This document shows positions 56,801 through 63,559 of a stretch of DNA of 64,000 bases, piece after piece. This stretch comes from Streptomyces bambusae (lineage in GTDB: Bacteria; Actinomycetota; Actinomycetes; Streptomycetales; Streptomycetaceae): positions 62,001 to 126,000 of the forward strand of contig NZ_JAJAUZ010000006.1 of NCBI RefSeq assembly GCF_020532645.1, given 5' to 3'. Position 1 is the first letter of the stretch. Every line of letters begins with the position of its first letter. The position numbers and the translations under genes were made by a program. The notes below the pieces were generated by a model. That model had not been told where the DNA came from, did no database searches, and worked only from the letters and a program-made list of their open reading frames with translations.

Positions 56801-58579
56801 CCCGTCGTGGCGGCCGCCGCCGTCCCCGGTCTCGAACTGGTAGCCCAGACCGCCCTGGATGCTGCCGCCGTAGGGCCGCAGGCCGAAGGTCCGGTCGGGT
56901 ACGAAGACGTCTTCGGGCCGGTCCGACCAGAACGACGGTCCGGTGAAGGAGTCGTCCGGGTCGGTGGACCAGCTGACCAGGAACCGGCCGCCCGCGTAGT
57001 GGACGACGTGGTGGTCGGCGTCCTCGGGCAGGGTGAAGCCGGCGGTGGCACGGACGGAACCCGGCGCGACGGCGACCGCCTTCGCACGTCCGTAGACGGT
57101 CAGCACGGGCCAGGTGCACGTCACCCCGGCCACCTCCTCGGGCGCCAGCGCGGCGACGGCCTCCTCCAGGGCGGGCCAGCCCAGTTCCTCCGGCAGGCCG
57201 GCGCGCAGCGCGCGGGCGAGCGGGCCGGTCCCGTCGAGGGCGGCGAGGGCCTCGTCGATGCCGTCGAGGGCGGTGGCGGTGGGCCGGTCCAGCAGCCCCG
57301 TCAACTCCTCCACCGCCTCGTCGGCGGCGGCCGGTCCACCGCCCGCCAGAGCGGAGAGCAGGCCCTCGACCCGGGCCTGCACCTCGGCGGCGATGCCCGG
57401 GTTCTCCGGCAGCCGGGTGATCGCGGTGCCGCCGCTGCGCAGCCCGGCGTGCACGGTGCCCTCCAGCCGCGGCCCGAACGACGGGTCCGTGGCCAGGGCC
57501 AACAGATTCCGGCGGGACCGGTCGCCCCAGAAGGCCAGCCCGACCGTCGGGCCCGGGTCGACGACGGCGATGCCCTCGGCGAGGCAGAGGTCGAGCAGGT
57601 CCGCGTCGAGGCCGGGCCACTGCCGGCGGTCCTCGTGCAGGACGACCGGCGTGCCGGCGGCGCGCAGCCGTGGCGCGAACCGGGCGACCAGGTCGAACAG
57701 TTCCTCCGGCACGGGCTGCCGGATCACCCCGCCGTAGGCCACCGGGCGGTGCGAGTAGGCGAAGGTGTAGCGGCCGAGCCAGGCCGCGATCCCGCCCGCG
57801 GGCGCGATGCGGCCCGCGGCGACCGCGTCCGCGGCTCCGGAACGCAGCAGCACCCGGAGCCAGGCGGCCGCGTCGTTCCTCGACTCGGGGAAGACGTCGA
57901 GGAGCCCGGCCAGGACCTCGTCGTCCTGCGGGTGCTCGGCGAGCAGGGCGGCCACCCCGTCGAGCAGGGTGTCCGGCACGGCCTTCCCACGGGCCGCGCC
58001 GACCGTCCGGGCCAGCACGGCGGCGACCGCGGAGTCCCCGAGGCCGGCGGCGTGCGCCGAGACGCGCAGCCGGCGGGCCAGATCGGCCGGGAGCTCACCC
58101 GGCGAAGCCGTCCACGCGGCCAGCACCCGTACGTACTCCTCGTGCGCGTCGGCCGGCTCCGACACGGCGGCCAGCCACGCCTGATGCCCGCTCAGCTCCT
58201 TGACCGGCAGGGCCCCGGCGCCGGCCAGGAGCGCGACGTTGCGGCGCCGCCACTGCGGGTCCACCGGCAGGTCGTGCTCCCGCTCCGCCGCCCGCGCCAG
58301 CGTGTACGCCCGGCCGGCGGCCCGGGTGTCCCACGAGGCGAAGCGGTGCGCCACCGTGTCCCAGAACCAGGGCAGATGGGCCGCCGGAAGCGGGCGGGCG
58401 AGACGGGTCAGCTCGTCGAGGGCGCGGCCGGCCTTCGGATACGCCCGCGAGATCCGGTCGCCCACGGCAGCCAGCACGCTGCGCGCGGCCTCCTCCGCGT
58501 CCGGCCCGTGCGAACGGGCCCAGTCCGCATAGGAATCGGAGCGGCGGGGATCGGACGGCAGCGGCACGGAGACGTTCAT
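53852..58579 (-). CDS. Very large protein of unknown function (1575 aa)
   Basis: No signal peptide, membrane segment or enzyme motif is obvious. The N-terminal ~450 residues are helical, repeat-like and Ala/Arg-rich (HEAT-type look). The centre (~480-700) is beta-rich with many Trp/Asp/Gly (WSTDPDDSFTGPSFWSDRPEDVF, GGSIQGGLGYQFETGDGGG, DGTGIWSSRVFGGLKGW). A Gly/Ala low-complexity linker lies at ~1000-1070. The C-terminal third is helical with LVLGGLPQRGNHDEHLKALR and a basic end (RRWNGWSPARHKKAQEEL). ATG 58579 is used. The gene sits alone, divergent from a WhiB gene. It is among the largest proteins in the window and probably a scaffold or regulator, but I cannot assign a role. Confidence 0.8.
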   Translation of the reverse strand: MNVSVPLPSDPRRSDSYADWARSHGPDAEEAARSVLAAVGDRISRAYPKAGRALDELTRLARPLPAAHLPWFWDTVAHRFASWDTRAAGRAYTLARAAEREHDLPVDPQWRRRNVALLAGAGALPVKELSGHQAWLAAVSEPADAHEEYVRVLAAWTASPGELPADLARRLRVSAHAAGLGDSAVAAVLARTVGAARGKAVPDTLLDGVAALLAEHPQDDEVLAGLLDVFPESRNDAAAWLRVLLRSGAADAVAAGRIAPAGGIAAWLGRYTFAYSHRPVAYGGVIRQPVPEELFDLVARFAPRLRAAGTPVVLHEDRRQWPGLDADLLDLCLAEGIAVVDPGPTVGLAFWGDRSRRNLLALATDPSFGPRLEGTVHAGLRSGGTAITRLPENPGIAAEVQARVEGLLSALAGGGPAAADEAVEELTGLLDRPTATALDGIDEALAALDGTGPLARALRAGLPEELGWPALEEAVAALAPEEVAGVTCTWPVLTVYGRAKAVAVAPGSVRATAGFTLPEDADHHVVHYAGGRFLVSWSTDPDDSFTGPSFWSDRPEDVFVPDRTFGLRPYGGSIQGGLGYQFETGDGGGRHDGERVLRPGGREGVDHHDFQMGDGTGIWSSRVFGGLKGWARVDPVTGARAAEPSVPAFHEAEPPPGTALFGDQLTLAALPPDAPASPLGQDGVLTGCRVLHRTPYAGPSPTEFLLEGIDGRRARYRSRRPGRRPWGVIRMPAGGEDAVLAGETVIRCHAAEDNSLLWEARGFPGGEGARNRPSGHGVGTFPPPAFWHFLAPRDAASSAALRALGADAVRALLDAATEAEGDRAALRDRIAGLLPGVSEPRVADGVVRAALLAADVLRRRKELSRRVAVMRAGPGVELPSSVPDSALAPALGGLLPQLRPYGAYVPGGHPATLTAVAAEGRHLRGEIDDETRRLALPAAPAPWTALLGSIDAVAWRAAVGTTSEADRAALGALLETWAGQPFAARGSRWRTGLQGGGSAGGYAVRPAEAAGAGPAGNGPAGSACGDGGPTAARPTGSGSTGGAAAAEARAADPRTADTAGDGEVRSIARDDASRLPRLLDLVARRGPLALPPEAVAAFARRTGVRRSIATLVLGGLPQRGNHDEHLKALRAAPYKAGKAVVREYDGLRHRLGDTGCRAVLAAGVPEDPAELWEPDGMTAAAARMAEAWAGLLGTTEYVDEDLAAALEADLGLASGWALALTGGPEAAGRYVPGAAGVLVGAPNGGLALHHAEADGSPGRPVFVHHPVHAAPASVVAWALTELPVGDPAAAGAAAVHTALRARMDDPRTLVPLGRHPVLGRAVPGDSSFSPYGGAVLPCPRPLYREDTVVSTAHDDGLFVVSVPAGDVFLRPAALADPALAGRAEHLGASLGLPGLAAAVRRVETACGGGLARMLARAADTPVPPGGHELNPALAVPELVAEAAAALGVGTDAAGLYLQLLALARPTDRNVRRWNGWSPARHKKAQEELAQAGAVETGRRPRAGRTAFVPGPWTELKAPHLPLETAKLHLHGATAETPDPDLPFLRLLPPVPPHELFAEAWRAAGTPVLPGAGGAA

Positions 58580-58724
58580 GAACCGATCCTGGCACGCCCC
58601 ACCGACACCGCCGGCGCCCGCTCCCCTCGGAGCCGGGCCGAAACGCGGAGGTTTCAGGAGGCGCACCCGGGCGAGACGCGCCTTCGACAGGAGTTCCGGC
58701 CGACCGAGTTGAGAGGAGTCCGCC

Positions 58725-59045
58725 GTGTCGACCACATCGCGGCTGCCGGGAAGTGCGGCGCACCAGTGGACGTGGCAGGAGCGTGCCGCCTGCCGGGAAC
58801 TGGGCCCGGACAGGTTCTTCCACCCTGCGGGGGAGCGGAGCGAGGACCGCGATGCCCGCGACCGGGCCGCCAAGGAAGTCTGCGCGGGGTGCCCCGTCAG
58901 GCGTGCCTGCCTGCGCCACGCACTGCAGGTCCAGGAACCGTACGGCGTGTGGGGCGGCCTGACCGAGGAGGAGCGGCGCCCCCTCTACGCCCACGCCGCA
59001 CTCGCCGCCCGCCCGGCCGCGAGCGCGGCGGGACGCCCCGAGTGA
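58725..59045 (+). CDS. WhiB-family regulator (second copy in the window)
   Basis: A 106-aa Wbl protein. The [4Fe-4S] cysteines are Cys23, Cys53, Cys56 and Cys62 with the family spacing, then LRHAL, an intact GVWGG turn and LTEEERRPLY. Trp-rich sequence precedes the first Cys (HQWTWQERAAC). GTG 58725 follows GAGGAG. It is likely a redox-sensing transcription factor. Divergent from the 1575-aa gene, with ~145 bp between them. Confidence 0.93.
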   Translation: MSTTSRLPGSAAHQWTWQERAACRELGPDRFFHPAGERSEDRDARDRAAKEVCAGCPVRRACLRHALQVQEPYGVWGGLTEEERRPLYAHAALAARPAASAAGRPE

Positions 59046-59087
59046 AGACCGCCGGGCGCCCCCGGCGAAGAGGGCCGGATGGCCCCG

Positions 59088-59897
59088 TCACGTCGTGGGA
59101 CCACCTGCACGCCGGCCGGCGTGAGGCGCGGGGGAGTCCGAGGCCCGCTCGAACGTGCCGCGCCATGCTGCCGTGAGCTCGGCCGCCCCGTGCGCGTCCA
59201 CGAGATCCGGAGCGCCGAAGGCCATGGCGGCGTCGAGAAGAGCACCGAGGGCGGCGCGCCAGGCAGGAGCCGTCACCTCGTCACCGTCCTCGTCCACCGT
59301 GAACGCCTCGTCACCGCCCCGCAGCCGCGCGCTCTCGCGGACCACGCGGGACAGCACCGTGAACCCGTGTCCGATCGGTGACCGGGACCGTCCGGCGCCC
59401 GGCACGGCCAGCGTCCATGCGTGCGGCCGGCCCCGGTAGGGCGCCCCGTTCGGCTGGTCGGCGAGCCACCGTTCCCACGCCGCACCGTAGGCCTGGTCGG
59501 CCGTCGTGCTCCGGAGGGACGCGAGCCGGTGCGCCCCCTCGCCGTCCAGGGCGCGTCCCGCCTCGAGCACGCGGAGCACGGCCTTCCCGTGGCCTCCGAA
59601 GAGCAGCGCGGGGGACAGTTCCTCCACCAGGTCGACGGCGACGGCACGGGTGAAGGCGGCCCCGGAACGCAGGTTACCGGCAGCCAGAGCCGCCGCGGCC
59701 CGTTCCCTGTCCGTCGACGGAGGAACGACCTCGGCCCGGAACAGCCGCCCCGGCCAGCGGACGACCAGCACGCCCTCCAACTCCTCGTCCACGACCAGCC
59801 AGGGCGGCTCCAGCGACGGGACCCTGATCCGTGCCCCCACCGCGGCCCCCTGGAGATGCCCGGGAGCCTCGTGATCGACGTACATGTACCCGGCCAT
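59088..59897 (-). CDS. Hypothetical protein, 269 aa
   Basis: I do not recognise the family. The N-terminal ~60 residues contain an acidic, beta-like segment (MYVDHEAPGHL, VPSLEPPWLVVDEELEGVLVVRWPGRLFRAEVV), and the rest is helical with LLFGGHGKAVLRVLEAGRALDGEGAHRLASLRS. No membrane helix or signal is seen. ATG 59897 has GGGAGAG upstream; an internal Met5 is possible. It is divergent from the lower-GC nuclease-like gene, and its own GC matches the host, so it may be a resident gene next to the insertion. Confidence 0.65.
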   Translation of the reverse strand: MAGYMYVDHEAPGHLQGAAVGARIRVPSLEPPWLVVDEELEGVLVVRWPGRLFRAEVVPPSTDRERAAAALAAGNLRSGAAFTRAVAVDLVEELSPALLFGGHGKAVLRVLEAGRALDGEGAHRLASLRSTTADQAYGAAWERWLADQPNGAPYRGRPHAWTLAVPGAGRSRSPIGHGFTVLSRVVRESARLRGGDEAFTVDEDGDEVTAPAWRAALGALLDAAMAFGAPDLVDAHGAAELTAAWRGTFERASDSPAPHAGRRAGGPTT

Positions 59898-59961
59898 TGC
59901 TCTCCCCCGTGCCTGACTCCGATGTGGTGGGCCGGAATCTACGCGGGAGGCGGGGGCGGAG

Positions 59962-61170
59962 GTGCGGGTGGGTTCCCCGTTCGTCGGGCTGTACCCGGAG
60001 TGGGATTTCCGCTCCGGGGCCTGCAGGTCCTGGCGCCGTGCCGGTGTGTCCGGTGACAATGTGGCGGTGATCGACGCCTTGTACGAGGCGCTGGACTTCC
60101 TCGTCACCTACAAGAGGTCCAGCCGGAGTGCTCGCAAGCAGGAACTGCAAGCAGAGTTCATTCGCGCCTTCGGGCCAAGGCGCGTTCGGAGCGTGCTTGT
60201 CGGTGACGGCTATGCACTCCGGTTCGCAGAAGCGCAGGCGGGCTCCTTCTCAAACACGATCTTGTCCCTCTCGGCGTTGCAGCAACACGACCAGGCTCCG
60301 TTCGTCGTCGTCGTCGTTCGTCGGGACCGACTGGACTTCCTGCTTGCCAACTCGACGATGCTGAAGAAGGTGAGCCACAGCTCGAGGGACCTTCGGATCG
60401 GCCGCGTTCGCGGGAGCTTCAACGGCAGCGACATCCTCCGGGAGTACGGCGAACTGCCCAACATCCCGGCCAACTTCGGGGCACTGTTCGCACTCCACGC
60501 CGCTTTCACCTGGGATGACAACGTCGAGCGCCTCGTAGAGGCGACCAATGCCATCGTCCCGCGGGACGTCCGCTTCCACCCCGGCACCGACGATCAGGCA
60601 CTGATTCTGGCGGCCCCGAGCCGTGCTGCAGCGGCTTTGGCCTCTCAGGACTTCGCTGCCATCGGCCACGACCTCGTCACCGCAGTGAAACACCATCGCC
60701 AGTCCATCCTCAGGCTCGCCGCGCTCGACAACGTCAACCTTCGCGGCAACGGGATCGAGCAGCTCATCACGGGAGACGGATCCGCGCACCGGCTCGACGA
60801 TCTTGAGCGTCGGTACGGGAGCACTCTGCTCTCCATCGACATCAAGACCAAGCTGCTGGACCGCGCTTCCGCGCCGAAGGCGTACAACGTCGACAAGATG
60901 CTGCGGTTCCTCGCGAAACCCGACACCGTCGCCGCAGTTCTCGTCATCGGCATCGACGTGGGTGGCCAGGATGTCCGCGCCATGCTGGTTCCCGTCCTCG
61001 AAAGGTCCCTTCTCGCGGCGACGAGGATCCAGCACCACTGGGCGGGCCGAGGCTCACGTGGGGTCACCCAGCTCTCCGGCCCGTTCGGCCAGGTGTTCGA
61101 GAGTGGCTACGGCCCAACCGTTCCCCTCGACCAGGCTCGTGAATTCCTAATAGAGCTCATCGCCCTCTGA
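59962..61170 (+). CDS. Lower-GC orphan gene, possible PD-(D/E)XK nuclease
   Basis: A 402-aa protein unlike its neighbours: third positions are less G/C-biased and sample lines run about 58-62% GC against ~72% nearby, suggesting recent transfer. The region around residues 279-300 (LDDLERRYGSTLLSIDIKTKLLD) has an Asp before a D-x-K pair (Asp280; Asp293-Ile-Lys295) as in PD-(D/E)XK restriction-type nucleases. KAYNVDKMLRFLAKPDTVAAVLVIGID and ATRIQHHWAGRGSRGVTQLSG follow. The N-terminus has FVVVVVRRDRLDFLL. No methyltransferase or Cas-like gene is adjacent. GTG 59962 is the furthest start; GTG 60046 or 60061 is possible. The nuclease assignment is a hypothesis from motif shape. Confidence 0.5.
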   Translation: MRVGSPFVGLYPEWDFRSGACRSWRRAGVSGDNVAVIDALYEALDFLVTYKRSSRSARKQELQAEFIRAFGPRRVRSVLVGDGYALRFAEAQAGSFSNTILSLSALQQHDQAPFVVVVVRRDRLDFLLANSTMLKKVSHSSRDLRIGRVRGSFNGSDILREYGELPNIPANFGALFALHAAFTWDDNVERLVEATNAIVPRDVRFHPGTDDQALILAAPSRAAAALASQDFAAIGHDLVTAVKHHRQSILRLAALDNVNLRGNGIEQLITGDGSAHRLDDLERRYGSTLLSIDIKTKLLDRASAPKAYNVDKMLRFLAKPDTVAAVLVIGIDVGGQDVRAMLVPVLERSLLAATRIQHHWAGRGSRGVTQLSGPFGQVFESGYGPTVPLDQAREFLIELIAL

Positions 61171-61358
61171 GCGCCACCGCGATCGTCCGGCCGCCGGCGC
61201 CCAGGGCCGCAGCCGACGCCGCAAGGACCACGGTGGGCCGGCTCTTCGCGGCGGCTCTGCAGCGGCGCAACGAGGTATGGCTCTCCCGGGTCGTGCGCCC
61301 GGCTCAGGCGATCAGACCGATTGGGGCGTTGCCCGCCTGTCTGCGGTCACCGGACCGC

Positions 61359-61574
61359 TCAGGTGTCGCGGCGGGTCTCGTCCACCACCGGGAGGGCGGC
61401 CGGCACACGGCGCCTGCGCAGGACGCTCGAGTACACCAGGAGCCCCAGCAGCCCGGCGGCCATCATGATCAGGCCCACGGCGTCCAAATTGACGCTCTCC
61501 AGCTTCCAGTCGCTCGCGAAGGTGAGGACGGCCCCCACCACGATCAGGGCGATGCAGCCGCCTATGCCAGCCAT
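61359..61574 (-). CDS. Small membrane protein (DUF6458-like)
   Basis: A 71-aa protein with two hydrophobic helices: MAGIGGCIALIVVGAVLTFASDW and LDAVGLIMMAAGLLGLLVY, then a basic tail. This matches the small DUF6458 membrane proteins of actinomycetes, function unknown. ATG 61574 has GAGGAGGG upstream. The longer open frame upstream is compositional. Confidence 0.85.
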   Translation of the reverse strand: MAGIGGCIALIVVGAVLTFASDWKLESVNLDAVGLIMMAAGLLGLLVYSSVLRRRRVPAALPVVDETRRDT

Positions 61575-61786
61575 GAGTGTCCCTCCTCGTCGGGTCGGGC
61601 AGCGGACGGATACGCCGACCGCGCGGGCCGCAGTCCCGGCCCGCTGAACGACGTACGGCACGTGCCGCGCGCGAAGTGCGCAGTCCCGTCCGCTCCCCGA
61701 ACAACCGTCATGCGCCGCTCCTGCCCGCCCGCGGCGGTCTGAAGCACGAGCAGGCCACGCAGGGGCCGACCGGCCGGAAGTCCCCC

Positions 61787-63010
61787 TCAGGGAAGGAAGG
61801 TCACCGCCGGGAAGGCCGGGGACGGCCCGTCCAGGAGGTGCCCGGGACGGTGGCGCAGGTGCTCGTCGAAGAACGCGCGCGGATACGCCTGCTGGATCTT
61901 CACCGCCTGGTCGGGATCGAGGGTGCCGATCACGCGTTGGAGCTGCTGCTCGCTCCATCCGAGCCGCTTCGCCACCTGGGGGAACAGCGCCTCGTTGTCG
62001 CCGTACGAGATGTGCGCGGCGCCCTCGGCCCGTATGTCCAGCCGCCAGCCCCGCAGTTGGGACCAGAACGCGGCGGCCGCGGGATGCGTGGCACGGGCGA
62101 ACTCGGCGGACATCGTCATGAACGGCCGGTGCAGGTCACCGGCCAGCGGCGGTTGCATCTGCATCGGGGCGTCGAGGCTCAGCCCGGCACGGATGCGCCC
62201 GTCCGCGAGCATGGCGCAGGCGGTGGCCGTGCCGCCCTTCGACCAGCCGAGGGCGCCGACGCGCCGGGGGTCGAGGGAGCCGAGGAGCCCGGCCGGCAAC
62301 CTGCTGCGGCCGACGTCCGGATTGCACCCGGCAGCGAGCTGCTCGACACAGTCGACGGCGAAGCGCAGATCGGCGGCGAAGTCCCCGGGGTACGTCGGCG
62401 CCTGGCTGTCGTCGAGGGGGACGGCGATCCGGCCGTCGGGGAACTCCGTGTACGTGTCGTACTGGTGGGCCAGGGTCACGACCGCGTACCCGTGACTGGC
62501 GAGCTCCTGGACCACGATGGTGTGGTCGCCCTCGTGGCTGTGCGCACCGTGCGAGAACACGACGACGGGCAGCCGCCGGCCCGTTCGCCGCACCGGAGCC
62601 CCCAGGCGGCCGGCCGTGAGCGGCCCCGCGGAGGCCAGCTCGCCCAACCCGGCATCGGTGACGAACGCCTTGAACGCGCCGTCCGGCATCCAGGGCGCCA
62701 ACGGGTGGCGCCCGACGTCCCGGGCGGGGTACCAGACGGTGGCCATCAGCTCGCGGAAACGCCCGGGGCCCGCGATGACGTCCGGACGCGAGCGGTCGAC
62801 CAGGTGCAACCGGACCGTACCCACCGGGTGCGGCCCGGTCGGCGCGGGCAGCGTGAGCCGCGCCCCGGCGGAGGCGGGAACCTTCCGGGCCACGGGCGTG
62901 CCGGCCCAGGCCGGCCCGGCAACGGCGGCGAGTGGCACGGCGGCCAGCGCCGCGCCCACAATGCTGCGGCGCGTCACGCCCTGCCGACCGGCTAACTGCG
63001 TGGTGTTCAT
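61787..63010 (-). CDS. Secreted alpha/beta hydrolase (PAF-acetylhydrolase II-like)
   Basis: A 407-aa exported serine esterase. The N-terminus is a twin-arginine signal (TRRSIVGAALAAVPLAAVAGPAWA, cleavage near residue 36). The nucleophile is Ser257 in GWSKGG; Asp280 (SLDAPM) and His333 (AAHISYGD) complete a plausible triad. VVVFSHGAHSHEGDHTIVVQELASHGYAVVTL contains the oxyanion region. This fits the platelet-activating-factor acetylhydrolase/poly-ester-hydrolase group of Streptomyces. ATG 63010 has GGGGGAG upstream. It probably hydrolyses lipid or polymer esters outside the cell. Confidence 0.9.
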   Translation of the reverse strand: MNTTQLAGRQGVTRRSIVGAALAAVPLAAVAGPAWAGTPVARKVPASAGARLTLPAPTGPHPVGTVRLHLVDRSRPDVIAGPGRFRELMATVWYPARDVGRHPLAPWMPDGAFKAFVTDAGLGELASAGPLTAGRLGAPVRRTGRRLPVVVFSHGAHSHEGDHTIVVQELASHGYAVVTLAHQYDTYTEFPDGRIAVPLDDSQAPTYPGDFAADLRFAVDCVEQLAAGCNPDVGRSRLPAGLLGSLDPRRVGALGWSKGGTATACAMLADGRIRAGLSLDAPMQMQPPLAGDLHRPFMTMSAEFARATHPAAAAFWSQLRGWRLDIRAEGAAHISYGDNEALFPQVAKRLGWSEQQLQRVIGTLDPDQAVKIQQAYPRAFFDEHLRHRPGHLLDGPSPAFPAVTFLP

Positions 63011-63188
63011 GAGAGCTCTCCCCCGTGGTGACGGATCGTCAACCATGCCGCAACGGCCGTTCCGTGGGCACAGGGGAACCCTGCCAGACCACCCTCCCCT
63101 TCAGCATCAGCCCACGGTTCTACACCCTGGGTCTGAGCCCGGGCACCGGCCGCCGCAGCCACCCGCCCGCCCTGCCGCCGGGGGCAGG

Positions 63189-63347
63189 TCAGTCGCCGCC
63201 GTCGCTGCCGGACCCGCCGCTGAACCCACTGCTGCGGCTGCCGCCGCCCCACATGCCGCCGCGGCGCTTCCGCTGCGTCCCCCCGCCCGCGATGTGGAGC
63301 AGGAATGCGATCACGATCACCGCAGGGGTGATCAGGGATTCGAGCAC
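63189..63347 (-). CDS. 52-aa membrane protein with Gly/Ser-rich tail
   Basis: GTG 63347 has GGAGG 5 nt upstream, one of the best ribosome sites here. The product is one hydrophobic helix ([18 protein letters not shown]) followed by a basic patch (QRKRRGG) and a Gly/Ser/Trp/Asp tail ending DGGD. No family is known to me. Its frame is continuous with the broken SDR upstream, so a fused product cannot be excluded, but the strong start site argues for an independent small gene. Confidence 0.65.
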
Positions 63348-63559
63348 GGGATCCTCCCGGAACCGCCGGCCACGCATGCGGTCGCACCGTGTGTGACGAC
63401 GATGCCCGCCGAAGGCCCCGGGCCGAAACCGAGTTGAGGAACTCCAGAGCTTCACCTCCGGTGCGCAGAGGCGGCCACCGCCGTGCGGAACCCGACCGCT
63501 TCGGCGACGGTGCGGATCACTCCGGAGCGAAGGCGCCGGGAGCAGAACCGCCCGGCCGC

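Follow-up and report, generated by a model that had tools for sequence, protein, structure and literature searches.

The gene, its family and its conserved residues

The window analysed here is a stretch of 64,000 nucleotides from Streptomyces bambusae, whose genome is denoted G000. The open frame at 59962-61170 on its forward strand (402 aa) was confirmed. Judging from the sequence, coding more likely starts at GTG 60061 or GTG 60067 than at 59962, because the DNA shared with a congener (genome G306, locus L010) starts only at 60026 and the N-terminus of the enzyme family aligns from there. The features of the locus are as follows.

60026-61206, forward strand: block common to the window and G306, with 94% (94.2%) DNA identity over 1128 bp and 92% over 51 bp
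60061-61170, forward strand: gene of a predicted solitary type II restriction endonuclease, 369 aa if started at GTG 60061 (GTG 60067 equally possible), matching PADLOC profile PDLC03461 with E 2.3e-68
60061-60618, forward strand: residues 1-186 (N-terminal half), another fold of the endonuclease kind but without D-x-K (predicted model)
60619-61167, forward strand: C-terminal half, residues 187-369, PD-(D/E)XK catalytic domain (predicted model, VIA-align 2)
60757-60846, forward strand: putative catalytic residues E233, D247, D260 and K262, invariant in 10/10 aligned rows, with the catalytic role taken from the motif
61030-61071, forward strand: QHHWAGRxSRGVTQ segment, residues 324-337, invariant except x in 10/10 aligned rows

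The GC content drops from 0.73-0.79 upstream (intervals starting at 57000-59500) to about 0.64-0.65 within the gene, and from 61000 onwards it is back at 0.70-0.77. The gene itself (60061-61167) has 64.2% GC and a third-position GC of 0.81, compared to 73.8-76.4% and 0.86-0.91 for three neighbours, which bears out the lower GC and deviating codon use remarked on in the preliminary description. The enzyme genes of five relatives outside the genus have 50-60% GC. Since these values are lower still, the composition of the window gene fits import, and the gene is probably foreign and accessory. The product of the left neighbour at 59091-59897 on the reverse strand has 269 aa and matched no family above a curated cut-off. 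A WhiB gene is present among the genes of the window and, like the high GC, points to Actinomycetota.

The PADLOC profile PDLC03461 ('REase_II', type II restriction enzyme) matches the window enzyme along its length in two stretches, and it was also matched by all four relatives tested. Searches of Pfam, NCBIfam and PHROGs gave no family for the window enzyme. A sequence search of solved structures gave a single hint, a Holliday-junction resolvase with E 0.16 over residues 227-301, which correspond to the putative catalytic core; a profile search of PDB sequences with the window enzyme gave no relevant match. Conservation was assessed on an alignment of ten rows, consisting of the window enzyme and nine relatives with 36-91% identity along the length, with the interrupted copy L106 left out. 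The Asp followed by D-x-K that had been pointed out in a conserved-looking block corresponds to D247 ... D260-I-K262 (window 60799-60801, 60838-60840 and 60844-60846), and the three residues are indeed identical in every aligned row. The enzyme has in this way the conserved D ... (D/E)-x-K residues of the PD-(D/E)XK superfamily. L106 has E-I-K, i.e. E in the place of D260, as the motif allows. Its counterpart of the beginning of the QHHWAGRxSRGVTQ segment is QFHWAGR; this segment may perhaps contact DNA. Both the profile match over the length and the invariant motifs are shared by the window enzyme and the relatives found.

Predicted structure of the two halves

The full-length predicted model has a mean pLDDT of 80.3 and a pTM of only 0.55. 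The best match of its C-terminal half is R.SwaI (5tgx; VIA-align 2 Z 11.7, rmsd 3.4, 158 residues aligned), and the next fold matches are EcoRV (Z 9.1) and HincII (Z 8.2). Foldseek alone was weaker; its best hit, HincII, had E 1.3e-3, and no match reached 0.001. The predicted half has the restriction-endonuclease-like core fold, and hence the suspected PD-(D/E)XK-type core is upheld by structure prediction together with fold search. Among the weaker matches of this half, with Z around 6, are the methylated-DNA-bound domains of NhoI and Eco15I.

The N-terminal half was folded alone (residues 1-187) with a pLDDT of 88.6 and a pTM of 0.81. R.SwaI (5tgq) ranked first here as well (VIA Z 8.9, rmsd 5.0, 159 residues aligned), followed by HincII with up to Z 7.9 and EcoRV with up to Z 6.3, where the tool warns that a Z near 8 may reflect a common arrangement. 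The top 35 VIA rows were all SwaI, HincII or EcoRV, and Foldseek alone gave a SPARDA chain as best match (E 0.012) with HincII next. In a hand alignment, S71 and L73 occupy the places of D260 and K262; S71 is invariant in all ten rows and L73 is V in one of them. The models suggest a single-chain pseudo-dimer having two like folds and one active site. A profile comparison of the N- and C-terminal halves gave E 0.53, which is no better than 20 column-shuffled controls and indicates no sequence-level similarity. Because this comparison was negative, the reading of one chain with two folds draws on the predicted structures only.

Although the R.SwaI, EcoRV and HincII class of PD-(D/E)XK enzymes provides the best fold matches of both halves, the listed chains of these enzymes have about 210-260 residues, whereas the window enzyme, at 369 residues, combines two endonuclease-like halves and carries a single set of catalytic residues. 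The likeness is at the level of the fold, with 3-13% identity in the matched rows and about 10% for SwaI. In the available text of PMC4081073, the single-chain type IIT enzymes Mva1269I and BtsCI have two endonuclease domains per chain, as in the window enzyme. According to the same text these enzymes contain two catalytic sites, recognise asymmetric targets and are generally accompanied by two methylases, whereas the window enzyme has one catalytic residue set and its relatives have a single methylase gene. A literature search on the nuclease domains of pseudodimer restriction endonucleases gave no match, and no SwaI structure paper was among the matches listed.

Methylase pairing, solitary copies and constraint

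Relatives of the enzyme were collected by pattern scans, which reach close relatives only and gave four genome loci (Novosphingobium, Bradyrhizobium, Microbacterium and Sphingobium) and seven loci in viral contigs. Further single-protein scans of viral contigs gave nothing beyond L022 (L125 is the same contig). The window enzyme had no match in phage records or plasmid records, the L020 enzyme none in phage records and the L023 enzyme none in plasmid records. In genome samples that overlap and that each include the window's own genome, the enzyme family was found in 2 of 392 genomes of the genus, 1 of 100 relatives and 1 of 396 in the phylum sample. The presence of the gene within the genus is variable, as had been proposed for checking, and it is not a core gene. 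In the taxonomic family of the Microbacterium genome (G831; locus L126) the count was 1 of 398, that genome itself.

A related DNA methylase is adjacent to the enzyme gene, or one gene from it, in all ten non-actinobacterial loci (L002, L003, L005, L019-L024 and L106). In L002, L003 and L005 an N6/N4 methylase (PF01555, E 1.4e-36 to 1.4e-41) follows the enzyme gene on the opposite strand, and those of L002 and L003 are also PADLOC MTase_II. Each of the seven viral loci encodes a methylase related to these. It is convergent with the enzyme gene in six of them, L019 having one ORF in between, and in L023 it lies upstream in tandem. The methylases of this family are presumably beta-class. In two viral contigs (L020:4099-9705 and L022:4089-9700) the pair lies between the genes for the large terminase subunit and the portal protein, and in a third (L024:1545-2957) it adjoins the portal gene (all PHROG assignments), by which gene order the pair appears to be cargo within a phage packaging module. 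In Bradyrhizobium (L003:11570-13810), a GmrSD_N and Schlafen/AlbA_2 fusion protein is encoded at a distance of about 1 kb from the methylase gene, perhaps as part of a small defence island. A Prevotella methylase related to the partner (L127:3986-4948 in NC_022111.1; 53% identity over 91% of the query) is a possible orphan; the 8.9 kb around it yielded no relative of the enzyme.

In contrast to these relatives, the window copy has no such neighbour, and a linked methylase is found in 0/3 actinobacterial loci versus 10/10 non-actinobacterial loci. A six-frame scan for methylase motifs covered the whole window and 19 kb around each of the G306 and Microbacterium copies. Its single match, GPPCQ at window 1525 on the reverse strand, is antisense to the gene of a helix-turn-helix protein and was taken as chance for that reason. 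The control loci L002, L003, L020 and L106 all show methylase motifs in the same scan. An ORF-based methylase scan covered only ORFs with high third-position GC. In order to find a methylase remnant near the gene, we compared three methylases of the family by tblastn to the window, L012, the flanks of L010 and L004, which gave chance matches only (best E 0.19). The absence of a partner methylase nearby, noted from the letters alone, therefore held for the window as a whole. Genome-wide, the L003 methylase as query gave at best 35% over 72 aa in G000 and 31% over 76 aa in G306, and the L002 methylase 34% over 196 aa in G831, with controls of 100% (G832) and 74% (G833). The window gene accordingly lacks the enzyme-linked cognate methylase of a type II restriction-modification system. 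It does have the properties by which the available part of PMC3488263 delimits solitary endonucleases, namely kinship with an enzyme of a restriction-modification system, absence of a linked methylase and nothing in the genome that is closely related to the partner methylase.

The preliminary description had regarded the missing methylase as expected for a modification-dependent nuclease or a solitary defence gene. A type IIM or IV enzyme that cuts only foreign modified DNA would be tolerated without a methylase, the weak NhoI and Eco15I fold rows point in that direction, and at seven positions where the other eight rows are invariant both congeners have a different residue, which leaves room for a switch. 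The pairing in 10/10 non-actinobacterial loci, however, is how ordinary type II systems that cut unmodified DNA are arranged, which is the opposite logic, and no Pfam family of any kind was found for the enzyme. We therefore rejected modification dependence as the main reading and consider it highly improbable. The solitary defence gene, as read from the sequence, fits.

A second alternative is a separated restriction-modification system, in which an unrelated methylase elsewhere in the genome protects the same or an inner site. Such systems are described in the available part of PMC3488263, and other methylases are present in all three genomes with solitary copies and could protect. PF01555 was found at one place in G000, at two in G306 and in one protein of G831; PF00145 at one place in G000 and at two each in G306 and G831, some places being split into several matches; and PF02384 at one place in G000, two in G306 and one in G831. 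Both G000 and G306 carry a similar PF01555 methylase with a PF00145 methylase about 22-28 kb away.

G000:C81:138640-167246 and G306:C1:1375074-1398229: regions with PF01555 and PF00145 methylases, similar genes around the PF01555 one

We would guess that this region is an integrative element. The shared PF01555 methylase is, however, not closely related to the partner methylase of the family, and we regard a separated system as possible though on balance improbable.

Three solitary copies are known, one each in the window genome, one congener and one Microbacterium. In the tree of the ten rows they form one group with support 90/90, and the branches of L004 (Microbacterium) and L023 are long. 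The DNA shared by the window and G306 is about 1.2 kb with one recognisable gene and lies at unrelated places. The 51-bp block lies upstream of the 1128-bp block, with 148 bp between them in G306 only. The rest of 58001-63500 (5.5 kb compared) had one 25-bp match only to the 19 kb around the G306 copy, so the flanks are unrelated. No direct repeats of at least 14 bp bound the shared block. The gene at 61787-63046 has relatives in G012, G038 and G016, where the match stops at the end of the gene and the left flank is unmatched; comparison with these three genomes gave no clean empty site. In G306 a frame of about 41 codons (L010:9913-10055, reverse strand) starts in the 51-bp block and has a GTGA overlap with the enzyme gene, which resembles translational coupling. 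In the window, which lacks the 148 bp, the first codons of the counterpart of this frame run in frame into the enzyme. The short peptide had no match in 150 relatives, an uncontrolled negative as G306 itself was not confirmed in the set.

The dN/dS between the window and G306 copies is 0.43 (NG86), 0.36 (YN00) or 0.31 (ML). Non-synonymous codons number 31, compared to 41.4 +/- 3.3 expected when the same changes are placed at random, and 2 of 2000 simulations were as low. Differences between the two copies fall in 0/88 columns that are invariant in the other eight rows versus 30/274 other columns (Fisher p 2.3e-4). At 7 of these 88 positions the window and G306 copies both deviate from the other eight rows. 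These counts argue that the enzyme is under protein-level constraint between the congeners, part of which may predate the loss of the methylase. They also bear on whether the gene is a silent or inactive relict, the methylase having been lost and the enzyme being unexpressed or dead. The upstream sequence does differ, with the 148 bp between the shared blocks of G306 missing from the window, and absent expression or activity is among the explanations for solitary enzymes named in the available part of PMC3488263. On the other hand, the frame is full-length, the putative catalytic residues are intact, dN/dS is well below 1, none of the family-invariant columns is changed and the gene groups with a solitary copy from another genus. 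A relict is in our view unlikely. Taken together, the PADLOC match, the missing methylase, the shared block and the constraint argue for a solitary type II restriction enzyme that appears to be shared as a single gene and is probably functional.

Candidate targets and host tolerance

According to the available text of PMC3488263, a type II restriction enzyme without a methylase should be highly toxic to the host. The options given there are that a methylase is encoded at a distance, that the solitary enzyme is not expressed or not active, or that the genome lacks its sites, and these are offered as untested explanations. All 16 four-bp palindromes occur in both a 460 kb sample of G000 and a 419 kb sample of G306. 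Of the 64 six-bp palindromes, 3 are missing from the G000 sample and 7 from the G306 sample. TTATAA and TTTAAA are the only ones missing from both, and they are absent from both non-carrier samples as well. If the two enzymes have one unprotected target in common, TTATAA and TTTAAA are the only uninterrupted palindromes of 4 or 6 bp that it could be. An active unprotected enzyme with one target in both hosts needs TTATAA, TTTAAA or a target that is longer, interrupted, odd-length or asymmetric; the scan covered uninterrupted palindromes of 4 and 6 bp. We also looked for the target by site avoidance in two carriers and two non-carriers. The best depletions (CTCGAG, CTAG and AAGCTT) were shared by the non-carriers, and no target emerged.

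As both halves resemble SwaI, an AT-rich 8-mer target is attractive. The R.SwaI target, which we take to be ATTTAAAT, occurs 0 times in G000, G306 and G831, also 0 times in G833, which has the methylase, and twice in G832. A genome of such size and composition would be expected to contain it only about once (scaled from the sample). Because the zero counts are near chance expectation and G833 also has zero, they are silent on specificity.

With about as much doubt as confidence, we prefer to read the gene as a solitary type II restriction endonuclease with one C-terminal PD-(D/E)XK centre that is tolerated by means of a long, AT-rich and rare target. The enzyme would bind a specific DNA sequence and cleave through its one centre with D247, D260 and K262. 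The N-terminal half would have the same type of fold as the C-terminal one but be catalytically empty, so that one chain could cover the site like a homodimer, and the strands would be cut one at a time or through transient pairing. The part of which we are least sure is host tolerance, which would depend on a long, AT-rich target that is missing or almost missing from a chromosome of 72% GC. Being present in some incoming DNA, such a target would let the enzyme act as a stand-alone defence gene, as with PacI. A further-reaching version, which we put forward tentatively and think rather improbable, is an actinomycetotal lineage that has lost its methylase and spreads as a naked gene on target rarity in high-GC genomes. 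The enzyme would then be a pseudo-dimer of two SwaI/EcoRV-like folds, one of them dead, and would nick the strands in turn, which would also soften self-damage.

The enzyme is ordinary in kind, as it is a restriction enzyme and solitary examples are known. What is unusual is that the group, found in high-GC bacteria, is under constraint and apparently free of methylase, and that the enzyme probably combines two folds in a single chain. In such a small group, where the partner methylase is known from relatives and the putative active site is intact, target rarity in GC-rich DNA is a testable reason for survival. The window enzyme could also yield a rare-cutter with an unusual design of one chain and one active site. 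A literature search on orphan restriction endonucleases in Streptomyces gave no match. The survival logic proposed for the window enzyme is that of PacI, which in the available part of PMC3488263 is an enzyme without a methyltransferase in a host genome without its sites, although PacI is an HNH enzyme (PMC4081073, available text) and the window enzyme is of the PD-(D/E)XK kind. Like the window enzyme, the solitary endonucleases described in that part of PMC3488263 are related to enzymes of complete systems, and no methylase matching them was found in the genome. Compared to that survey, as far as its available part goes, the solitary copies of the present group cluster across two genera and their constraint is measured.
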